Shown here: one piece after another, positions 19,047-22,079 of the stretch
Layout: the number at the start of each line of letters is the position of its first letter
Position numbering within the stretch: position 1 is the first letter of the stretch
Source of the DNA: Armatimonadota bacterium
GTDB taxonomy: Bacteria > Armatimonadota > Zipacnadia > UBA1398 > JAKPQA01
NCBI GenBank assembly: GCA_029547025.1
Contig: JAKPQA010000033.1
Location: 1-38,248 of the forward strand
Length of the DNA: 38,248 nt
Direction of reading: 5' to 3'
Translations under genes and position numbers: made by a program
The notes under the pieces: model-generated
Databases searched by the model: none
Seen by the model: the letters and a program-made list of their open reading frames with translations, nothing else
Told to the model about the DNA's origin: nothing

Positions 19047-22000
19047 ATGGATACTCTGGCGCGGCCCTGCGCGGTGGTGTTCTGTGTGCTTGCGTGTTTT
19101 CCCGCGGCGACCCAGGGGAACCCACTACGGTTCGACTTCGAGACCGGTGATCTCCAGGGCTGGCGGATCGTCGAGGGGCAGTTTGACGAGGTCGTGTGTG
19201 GCAAGGCGACCGGCCGCAACGCGCCCGGTGACCTGAACAAGCAGGGGCGGTACTTCCTGTCCAGCATCGAGCGGCCGGGCGGCCGGGGCGACGACTCGAT
19301 GACCGGCATCATCGAGTCCCCGGCGTTTTGGCTGGACGGCCCCCAGGTGACGTTCCGCGTTGGCGGTGGCAACCACCCGGACACCTACGTGGCCCTGGTG
19401 ACGTGCGACGACGACCTCGAGGTGCTTCGTGCCGGCGGGCCGGTCTCGGAGTTCATGGTGCCCGTGGAGTGGGATGCGACGGCCTACGTGGGCCGCCTAG
19501 TGTGTATTCGTGTGGTCGACCACAACCGGGGTGGCTGGGGGCACATCACGCTCGACGATGTCTCGGCCACCGGCCGAATCGATGCCGAGGCCACGGCTCA
19601 GCGCGACCGGGATCGGCTGCAAGCTCGTGCCCAAGAGGCTGTCCGGATCATCGCCGGGCCGCTGGCGCTGGCCATCGCCGACCTGCGAGACACCTTCGGC
19701 CCTCGCTACCCGGGTGCTAGCGCATATCTCGCGCGACTCGCCGAGCTGACGGCATCGTTGGGGGGCGCCGCGGCGCCGGCTCGGATCGAGGAATGCCTCG
19801 CCGCGCTCCGGCAGTTGCAGCGCGAGGCGCTGATCGCGAACCCACTCGTGAGCGAAGCGCCGTTACTGTTCGTGACCCGAGCCCAGTATCTACCCGACCA
19901 CCACAACACCGAGACCCTGTTCCAGACGGGTGAGATCAACACGGCCAGTTTCCGCGGCGGCGGAGCGCTGAGGACTATCGATCTGCGCACGGGCGAGACG
20001 CGGACACTGGTCGAGGCTCCCCAAGGCATCGTGCGTGACCCGGACGTGCGCTTCGACGGCGCTCGAATCGTGTTCTCAATGCGCCAAAACGCGGCCGACG
20101 ACTACCACATCTATGAGGTGGGGATGGACGGATCGAGGCTGGCGCAACTCACGTTCGGGCGCGGGCTGTCGGATCTCGACCCACTCTATCTGCCTGACGG
20201 ACGCATCGCGTTCAGCTCGACGCGCGAGCCCAAGTACTGCATGTGCAACCGCCACGTCATGGCCAACCTGTTTCGGATGGAACCCGACGGGGCGAGCATC
20301 GAGCAGATCGGGAAGAGCACGCTGTTCGAGGGCCACGGCAGTCTCACGCCGGACGGCCGTATCCTGTATGACCGATGGGAGTATGTGGACCGCAACTTCG
20401 GCGACGCTCAGGGGCTGTGGGTGTGCAACCCCGATGGCACCGAGCATGTGCTGTACTGGGGCAACAACACGCCATCGCCCGGCGCCGTGCTCGAGGGGCG
20501 CGTCATTCCGGGGACGCAGCGAGTCGTGGCGACGTTCTCCTCATGCCACGATCGGCCGTGGGGTGCACTGGCCATCGTGGACCGGCGCCTCGGGATGGAC
20601 GGCCGCGCCCCGGTGGTGCGTACGTGGCCGCCGTCGGCCATCGAACTGGTGATGCAGGGCGACTTCGACCGGTTCACCGCCGTGAACCCCAAGTATGAGG
20701 ACCCGTATCCGCTCAGCGAGCGCTACTTCCTCTGCTCACGCATGACGGGCGAGGGCGAGCGGATGGGGCTCTATCTGGTCGACGTGTTCGGCAACGAGGT
20801 GCTCCTGCACGTCGAGGGCCAGGGGTGCTTCGACCCGATGCCGCTCTCGCCCCGAGAGCGCCCACCCGTGGTGCCTGACCGAATCGACCTCCGCGGGGCC
20901 ATGGGCTATGCCTACGTCGACGACGTCTATCGGGGGACGGGCATGGATGCCGTCCATCGGGGCACGGTGCGCTGGCTGCGCGTGGTGGAGTCACCCGAGA
21001 AGCGGTTCTGGACGCAGGACGCATGGCTCGGCCAGGGCCAAGAGGCGCCGGCCATGAACTGGCATGACTTCAACAACAAGCGCATCCTCGGAACGGTGCC
21101 TGTCGATGAAGATGGGTCCGCCTACTTCGAGGTACCTGCCGACCGTTTCGTCTACTTTCAGCTACTCGACGAGCGCGGGATGATGGTGCAGTCGATGCGT
21201 AGCGGCACGACTTTCCGCCCCGGCGAGGCAACAGGTTGCATCGGCTGCCACGAGGACCGTGGTGCCACGGTGCCATCGATGCGCCCTCGCACGGCCTTCC
21301 ATCGGGCACCCTCCAAACTCGAACCGTGGCACGGCACACCGCGTGAGTTCAGCTACATCACGGAAGTGCAGCCGGTGTTCGATCGCTACTGTGTCTCATG
21401 CCACGACATGGACCAGCCGGCCGGGCAGAAGCTGTGCCTGGCGGGCGACCGCGGGCTTGCCTTCAACCGGTCCTACAACGAGATCTGGCGGAAGGGCTAC
21501 GTTCACGTGGTCGGCGCCGGGCCGGCGGAAGTGCAAGAGCCGCTGACCTGGGGCTCCCATGCGAGCAGGCTGGTGCAGGTGCTGCTGGCGGGGCACCACG
21601 GAGTCTCGCTCGACGCCGAGAGCTTCGACCGTCTGGTCACCTGGATCGATCTGAATGCGCCCTACTATCCAACCTATGCCACCGGCTACCCGCGGGGAGC
21701 CTTTGGCCGGTCGCCTTTGAGCAACGACGAGCTGACGCGCCTGGGGGCGCTGACGGGCATCAACTTCCTCGACCACGTCGGTGACCAGGAGGAGGAGATC
21801 CTCGTCAGCTTCGATCGGCCCGACATGAGCCCGGTTCTCGCAGCCATGGGGGACAAGGACGCGGAAGCCTATGCCGAGGCACTTGCCCTGATCGAGGCGG
21901 GCGCGAAGCGGCTGGCGGAGACGGACCGGGGCGATCGACCCACGTTCGTCTTGGCCGGGATCGAGGCCGACCGGCAGGCCAAGTATGCCGAGCGACAGGA

Positions 22001-22079
22001 GACGGCCGCGCGGACACGCCAGGCGATGCTGCGAGGCGAGAGGTACTACCCCTATCGTGACCAGGCGGCGGGGAGGTAG
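19047..22079 (+). CDS. Diheme hydrazine-synthase-alpha-like beta-propeller protein with N-terminal jelly-roll domain
   Basis: The protein has 1010 residues. It has a signal peptide (about 1-24, ending TQG), then a jelly-roll domain (about 27-175) with TFRVGGGNHPDTYVALV and GGWGHITLDDV. A coiled-coil-like helical segment follows (about 178-262). The next part has beta-propeller features of the HZS-alpha family (about 270-620: DHHNTETLFQTGEIN, CMCNRHVMANLFRM, LTPDGRILYDRWEYVDRNF). The c-type heme sites are CIGCH (731-735) and CVSCH (782-786). In anammox bacteria HzsA is the catalytic subunit of hydrazine synthase, but homologues occur widely in non-anammox bacteria with unknown roles, and no HzsB/C partner is seen here. 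ATG 19047 (GGAG 10 bases upstream) precedes the signal peptide; GTG 19002 is rejected. Likely a periplasmic redox or binding protein. Confidence 0.8.
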   Translation: MDTLARPCAVVFCVLACFPAATQGNPLRFDFETGDLQGWRIVEGQFDEVVCGKATGRNAPGDLNKQGRYFLSSIERPGGRGDDSMTGIIESPAFWLDGPQVTFRVGGGNHPDTYVALVTCDDDLEVLRAGGPVSEFMVPVEWDATAYVGRLVCIRVVDHNRGGWGHITLDDVSATGRIDAEATAQRDRDRLQARAQEAVRIIAGPLALAIADLRDTFGPRYPGASAYLARLAELTASLGGAAAPARIEECLAALRQLQREALIANPLVSEAPLLFVTRAQYLPDHHNTETLFQTGEINTASFRGGGALRTIDLRTGETRTLVEAPQGIVRDPDVRFDGARIVFSMRQNAADDYHIYEVGMDGSRLAQLTFGRGLSDLDPLYLPDGRIAFSSTREPKYCMCNRHVMANLFRMEPDGASIEQIGKSTLFEGHGSLTPDGRILYDRWEYVDRNFGDAQGLWVCNPDGTEHVLYWGNNTPSPGAVLEGRVIPGTQRVVATFSSCHDRPWGALAIVDRRLGMDGRAPVVRTWPPSAIELVMQGDFDRFTAVNPKYEDPYPLSERYFLCSRMTGEGERMGLYLVDVFGNEVLLHVEGQGCFDPMPLSPRERPPVVPDRIDLRGAMGYAYVDDVYRGTGMDAVHRGTVRWLRVVESPEKRFWTQDAWLGQGQEAPAMNWHDFNNKRILGTVPVDEDGSAYFEVPADRFVYFQLLDERGMMVQSMRSGTTFRPGEATGCIGCHEDRGATVPSMRPRTAFHRAPSKLEPWHGTPREFSYITEVQPVFDRYCVSCHDMDQPAGQKLCLAGDRGLAFNRSYNEIWRKGYVHVVGAGPAEVQEPLTWGSHASRLVQVLLAGHHGVSLDAESFDRLVTWIDLNAPYYPTYATGYPRGAFGRSPLSNDELTRLGALTGINFLDHVGDQEEEILVSFDRPDMSPVLAAMGDKDAEAYAEALALIEAGAKRLAETDRGDRPTFVLAGIEADRQAKYAERQETAARTRQAMLRGERYYPYRDQAAGR

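Follow-up and report, generated by a model that had tools for sequence, protein, structure and literature searches.

What does a protein resembling the alpha subunit of hydrazine synthase (HZS) do in an Armatimonadota bacterium? To our knowledge, HZS was long considered to be without relatives. The question is raised by one gene in a stretch of 38,248 nucleotides, contig JAKPQA010000033.1 of assembly GCA_029547025.1, which is contig C25 of our source genome (6.3 Mb, 369 contigs, 96% complete) and is referred to below as the window. The product of this gene, the window protein, was described in the original prediction as an HzsA-like diheme protein outside an anammox context and, by implication, as a protein that stands alone. 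We read it as the alpha-like subunit, secreted and carrying two hemes, of an HZS-like redox complex that does not serve anammox and whose active site combines heme with a set of Cys and His residues, and we assign this reading a probability of about 60%.

Relation to the alpha subunit of hydrazine synthase

The window protein belongs to the HZS_alpha domain family (PF18582), with an E-value of 2.5e-34 and a score of 118.1 bits against a gathering cut-off of 26.6, and the match covers all domain positions, 1-98. The top match of a profile search in the PDB was the alpha subunit of Kuenenia HZS (5c2v_A, E 6.6e-36), spanning the propeller, the middle domain and the C-terminal heme domain. The same chain was the top match of a fold search in the PDB (E 2.1e-25), with template modeling (TM) scores of 0.47 relative to the query and 0.60 relative to the target. 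An AlphaFold model of the window protein, built with 29 sequences, has a mean predicted local distance difference test score of 83.4 and a predicted TM score of 0.79, and shows a helical cytochrome part after the propeller and HZS_alpha region. Propeller, HZS_alpha middle domain and C-terminal cytochrome domain follow in the same order as in HzsA, and both proteins carry two c-heme motifs, while an extra N-terminal jelly roll and a helical spacer are found in the window protein only. The propeller region, the two c-type hemes, the jelly roll and the spacer had been predicted from the sequence, and all of them were recovered.

Key ligand residues of HzsA are different. According to two papers (PMC12758564, PMC12607021), the ligand of heme alpha-I in HzsA is Tyr591, four residues past the His of the CxxCH motif. 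This position is Gly739 in the window protein and Arg, Leu or Val in most homologues, and none of the HZS-like members in our alignments, which included close homologues and divergent paralogues, has a Tyr there. The zinc ligand Cys303 of HzsA aligns with Asn474 in a profile alignment to 5c2v_A, the chain being offset by 27 from the published numbering as derived from the position of the CxxCH motif; Cys303 itself is not retained in Scalinduaceae (PMC12758564). At the second heme the CxxCH motif (782-786) is present, and His850, kept in 72 of 83 aligned sequences, aligns to about one column with HzsA His772. The window protein also has a Cys/His set of its own, consisting of the motifs DHHN, CMCxxH and CH, at positions that are not Cys or His in the HzsA alignment, part of this stretch being low-scoring. 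With the HzsA equivalog model NF052339 it reaches 59.7 bits against a cut-off of 800. Because Tyr591 is missing, the Cys303 position is Asn and the score is far below this cut-off, the window protein is, as judged from its sequence, not a hydrazine synthase and should not be called one. Hydrazine synthase proper was rejected as a candidate on these heme and zinc ligands and scores, and the placement outside anammox in the original prediction stands.

A BC-like partner in relatives and in the source genome

A scan of GTDB contigs with short peptide seeds found 264 loci encoding a relative, 80 of which were kept (48-64% identity). The only strongly recurring neighbor of the homologues in these loci is a protein of about 620 amino acids in which a propeller is fused to a diheme domain. 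This HzsB-HzsC-like gene, here called BC-like, occurs in 11 of the 80 loci and lies directly downstream of the homologue in eight. The BC-like protein of locus L048 matches both 5c2v_B (HzsB, E 1.9e-33) and 5c2v_C (HzsC, E 2.9e-29) and scores 186 bits against a cut-off of 1250 in the HzsBC fusion model NF052342. In a set of 116 immediate-neighbor proteins, the domains seen most often are Lactonase/YNCE-type propellers and CCP_MauG, with 6-7 members each. The L048 locus also encodes an HZS_alpha domain fused to a sulfatase-modifying-type (FGE) domain (L048:2685-7775); this gene lies upstream of the homologue, from which a single small propeller-like gene separates it.

The two gene types also occur together across the phylum. 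Among 291 Armatimonadota genomes, HZS_alpha was found in 31 and BC-like genes in 32, with both in 26, alpha only in five, BC only in six and neither in 254 (Fisher p 1.5e-26). Counted by genus, the numbers are 20, 4, 5 and 127 (p 6e-17), a count from which shared descent is not fully removed. HZS_alpha genes reach at least 16 per genome, while BC-like genes usually number one. The source genome has 12 HZS_alpha genes and a BC-like fragment (C57:4-558) with 49% identity to residues 9-192 of the BC-like protein of a relative (G014; E 2.7e-47). This incomplete fragment reaches 91.6 of 560 bits in model NF052340 and 61.9 of 1250 in NF052342. Since its reading frame is open to the first bases of the contig, the rest of the gene is missing from the assembly and not shown to be absent. 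The prediction that HzsB and HzsC are lacking nearby is thus correct inside the window and fails for the genome, with its fragment on C57, and for the family, some of whose members stand beside complete BC-like genes. The implied stand-alone protein gives way to a member of an alpha-like/BC-like system, as adjacency in relatives and co-occurrence in the phylum indicate.

The BC-like proteins differ from the HZS subunits in their own heme surroundings. Cys165 of the gamma subunit, which provides the third thioether of heme gamma-I in HZS, has no Cys counterpart in 18 BC-like proteins of relatives, and the C57 copy ends before this site. In all 18 of these complete proteins a third Cys precedes the first CxxCH by seven residues (CFQxWQSCxxCH). 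The BC-like proteins of relatives also keep the Trp in WDLLNDG. The extra Cys (for example in L048:11262-13100) is not present in HzsC in the alignment and could correspond to a third thioether or to a ligand.

The HzsA fold, the two hemes, the BC-like gene and the presence of two octaheme proteins of the hydroxylamine oxidoreductase (HAO) family in the source genome could all be accommodated if the window protein were a true HZS alpha subunit and its host an unrecognized anammox organism. We consider this extremely improbable. Tyr591 is missing in all aligned members, gamma Cys165 is not conserved, and the candidates fall far under every cut-off: HzsA as given above, HzsBC as given for the incomplete fragment, and hydrazine dehydrogenase (HDH) with 53-59 bits of 900. 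No HzsA equivalog-like match was found in the 291 genomes of the phylum at E 1e-30, in a search run without a positive control. The original prediction would have accepted a genuine hydrazine synthase on retained catalytic residues together with HzsB and HzsC elsewhere in the genome; Tyr591 and Cys303 are not kept, and elsewhere there is only the BC-like fragment. The octaheme proteins (L175, G000:C103; L176, G000:C54) were rejected as HDH on their scores. The C103 protein adjoins a hydroxylamine reductase (hybrid cluster protein), and its top PDB match is a hypothetical multiheme protein (4qo5_A).

Conserved Cys/His residues and carbohydrate-type modules

The 82 close homologues come from six phyla: Planctomycetota, Verrucomicrobiota, Kiritimatiellota, Lentisphaerota, Hydrogenedentota and Armatimonadota. 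Cut copies aside, they score at least 1031 bits and all other relatives at most 391, and because of this clear gap we treat the 83 aligned sequences, the window protein included, as one subfamily. In a tree of 51 rows, which mixes phyla and contains long branches, the window protein groups with two Armatimonadota rows of the same order, with a support of 93 in the Shimodaira-Hasegawa-like approximate likelihood ratio test. Homologues from two genomes of this order (G001 and G002) are identical to those of the Armatimonadota records L056 and L069, and G018 matches L047. Seven residues of the Cys/His set (H285, N287, C398, C400, H403, C500 and H501) are invariant in all 83 sequences; H286 (82/83), D284 (81/83), H430 and C594 are nearly so. 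M717 is also invariant in the close homologues. The conservation of DHHN and C-M-C suspected in the original prediction is therefore strong. C500-H501 is contained in none of the search seeds. The Cys and His of DHHN, CMCxxH and CH are also kept in L126 and L129, two homologues that an independent search of whole genomes turned up, although L129 differs around them. In 43 divergent members of the family, the position of C400 holds Cys in 40 and that of H501 holds His in 33, while position 500 is His in 38.

In the structural model the residues of DHHN, CMCxxH and CH appear to lie on one face of the propeller, in the loops between the second and third blade strands. Such a set may bind a metal, as the original prediction had suggested for C-M-C and DHHN. 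Another explanation is a structural or plain electron-transfer cytochrome, in which the first heme would be a canonical low-spin heme c and no catalytic site would be present. Loss of the HZS ligand Tyr591 agrees with this explanation, as do the invariant M717, which could be a heme ligand, and the canonical heme-c pocket predicted for the S. fumaroxidans homologue in PMC12758564. A Cys/His set so strongly conserved over six phyla, however, exceeds the needs of a carrier cytochrome, and we find this explanation quite improbable.

The N-terminal domain of the window protein has no Pfam match. It shares 36% identity over 103 amino acids (E 5e-14) with the N-terminal domain of the adjacent protein of glycoside hydrolase family 32 (GH32), and it was found elsewhere in GH116 proteins (four cases, one of them in the source genome) and in one more GH32 protein. 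Within the subfamily it is present in 34 of the 83 aligned sequences, the window protein included. Eight paralogues of the source genome were scanned, and F5/8C domains were found in three, NPCBM in one and LamG3 in one. The survey of carbohydrate genes proposed earlier gave a divided answer, since these shared domains and paralogue modules are not accompanied by glycosidases as recurrent neighbors. The carbohydrate link is modular and not positional, and a link by position was rejected as a general rule. The modules are our best hint of a role at carbohydrates or at the cell surface.

These modules could also be taken to mean that the protein is a carbohydrate-linked heme oxidoreductase independent of any BC-like protein, for example one transferring electrons to, or oxidizing, glycan products beside GH32. 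The domain common to GH32 and GH116 enzymes, the binding-type modules of the paralogues and the presence in the window of genes for GH36, sugar-phosphate mutase and oxidoreductase are all in line with this possibility. It is nevertheless unlikely, as the neighbor that recurs is the propeller/diheme BC-like protein and not a glycosidase, alpha-like and BC-like genes co-occur tightly, and most aligned homologues lack the N-terminal domain.

In the HZS-like complex that we favor, the alpha-like protein would pair with the BC-like protein whose gene begins on contig C57. The first heme would sit on the propeller face bearing DHHN, CMCxxH and CH, and these residues could form a metal or second cofactor site, giving an active site unlike that of HzsA. 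The BC-like partner, lacking gamma-I Cys165 and having a conserved Trp that is also found in MauG and in bacterial cytochrome c peroxidases, may supply oxidizing or reducing equivalents, and the exchangeable modules of carbohydrate-enzyme type may place the alpha-like proteins on glycans or on the cell surface. A wider proposal is a modular heme-enzyme system: a single HzsBC-like diheme protein would work with at least a dozen HzsA-like subunits, each directed by its own carbohydrate-type binding module and each with a Cys/His-plus-heme active site. Such a system would be an oxidoreductase directed at glycans or located at the cell surface, and hydrazine synthase would have been recruited from its ancestors. 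We offer this proposal tentatively and think it rather unlikely to hold in full.

Several results weigh against an HZS-like complex of this kind. Five of the 31 alpha-bearing Armatimonadota genomes have no BC-like gene and six genomes have BC without alpha, several of them being drafts. Only the first part of a BC-like gene was seen in the source genome, on a contig separate from the alpha-like genes, so that the argument from adjacency rests on relatives. With about 12 alpha genes per BC-like gene, most alpha-like proteins cannot have a dedicated partner. The conservation of C398-C400 is partly a selection effect, as the seed EPKYCMCN, which contains C-M-C, is carried by 80 of the 83 sequences. 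That the Cys/His set is close to the heme is deduced from strand order alone, and AlphaFold confidence is low at several key loops (283-290 and 735-745). Finally, 49 of the 83 sequences do not have the N-terminal module and no glycosidase family is among the 25 commonest domains of the 116 immediate-neighbor proteins, and for these two reasons the link to glycans may not be general.

Feature coordinates and neighboring genes

Features of the gene and of its downstream neighbor are listed in Table 1. An in-frame GTG at 19002 lies upstream of the ATG start used here.

Table 1. Positions of the HZS-alpha-like gene, its domains and motifs, and the downstream GH32 gene in the window (aa, amino acids).
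Feature	Position	Strand	Basis
HZS-alpha-like diheme protein gene, 1010 aa	19047..22079	+	open reading frame, profile and fold matches
Probable Sec signal sequence, aa 1-24	19047..19118 (next domain starts at 19119)	+	hydrophobic N-terminus by inspection; model confidence low there
N-terminal jelly-roll domain, aa 25-178	19119..19580	+	beta-rich, strands aa 26-178 in AlphaFold model
Helical spacer, aa 180-263	19584..19835	+	long helices, AlphaFold model secondary structure
TolB/PD40-like beta-propeller, about aa 270-620	19854..20906	+	domain, profile, model and fold evidence
DHHN motif, D284-N287	19896..19907	+	alignment of close homologues
C398-M-C400-N-R-H403	20238..20255	+	alignment of close homologues
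C500-H501 (SCHDRPWG)	20544..20549	+	alignment; His-His in most paralogues
HZS_alpha middle domain (PF18582), aa 639-736	20961..21254	+	Pfam
CxxCH, heme alpha-I type (CIGCH, aa 731-735)	21237..21251	+	motif and alignment to HzsA
CxxCH, heme alpha-II type (CVSCH, aa 782-786)	21390..21404	+	motif and alignment to HzsA
His850, candidate distal ligand of second heme	21594..21596	+	alignment to HzsA
GH32 (fructanase-type) protein	22472..24757	+	Pfam; 393 bp 3' of the HZS-like gene, same strand

A fructanase and a flagellin-like gene had been named as neighbors. The GH32 assignment is solid, while the flagellin-like gene (18249-18953, minus strand) matches Flagellin_N only weakly (E 0.0012), its 19.3 bits being below the cut-off of 26.6. 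Downstream, a sugar-related run (22472-36797) contains genes for GH32, an NPCBM-associated protein, a phosphoglucomutase/phosphomannomutase, a GFO/IDH/MocA oxidoreductase, an NPCBM-GH36 protein and a phosphotriesterase-like protein, with an Nramp transporter gene on the opposite strand. On the minus strand are also a gene for a secreted tetraheme protein of 437 amino acids (9789-11102), which combines a UshA/SoxB-like metallophosphoesterase with a Cytochrome_C554-type domain and has four CxxCH motifs, and a gene for a 295-amino acid ankyrin-repeat protein with about eight repeats (16311-17198).

Comparison with known systems

Homologues of HZS alpha and beta-gamma are known in Planctomycetota, Desulfobacterota and others. 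In the work of Hagglund et al. 2025 (PMC12758564) they are divided into four clades, lack Tyr591 and Cys303, have Trp in place of gamma His144 and are judged non-anammox. The proteins studied here share with clades I-IV, as described there, an alpha subunit without Tyr591 and Cys303, co-located fused beta-gamma homologues and the Trp for gamma His144. What marks such systems, a genome that encodes an alpha of this kind as well as a fused beta-gamma homologue, often beside it, is found here too, with co-location in the relatives and a fragment on another contig in the source genome. Differences from that account are that neighborhoods of clades I-III carry FG-GAP proteins, which are not among the commonest neighbor domains here, and that clade I homologues are without His772, whereas His850 is mostly retained here. 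Its accessible text makes no mention of Armatimonadota, of paralogue expansion or of a glycosidase-type module.

Genes similar to hzsABC were also reported from Phycisphaerae and KSB1 genomes, and their authors suggested that they belong to a wider enzyme family acting on other substrates (PMC10732223). As in our case, the hzsA-like gene precedes a fused hzsBC-like gene in organisms that are not Brocadiales. The authors regarded the Phycisphaerae cases as possible anammox bacteria; for the proteins studied here, the ligand evidence speaks against an anammox role. The wide distribution of the subfamily shows that hzsA-like genes alone must not serve as anammox markers.

The BC-like partner can further be compared with family PF03150, that of MauG and the bacterial cytochrome c peroxidases, with which it shares the CCP_MauG domain, two CxxCH motifs and a conserved Trp. 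It differs from this family by its fusion to a YncE-type propeller and by the additional invariant Cys that precedes the first heme motif by seven residues. HZS-like alpha proteins and beta-gamma partners in six phyla provide concrete proteins for seeking the type of reaction from which hydrazine synthase arose, and the many-to-one ratio of alpha to BC together with exchangeable carbohydrate-enzyme modules suggests a testable class of substrates. We found no description in the literature of the Cys/His-rich subfamily, of this ratio or of the glycosidase-type module. The kind of system is already known, and what is added here is a large, strongly conserved subfamily that has its own Cys/His set, extends to Armatimonadota, bears a module of glycosidase type at the N-terminus and has many alpha-like genes to one BC-like gene.

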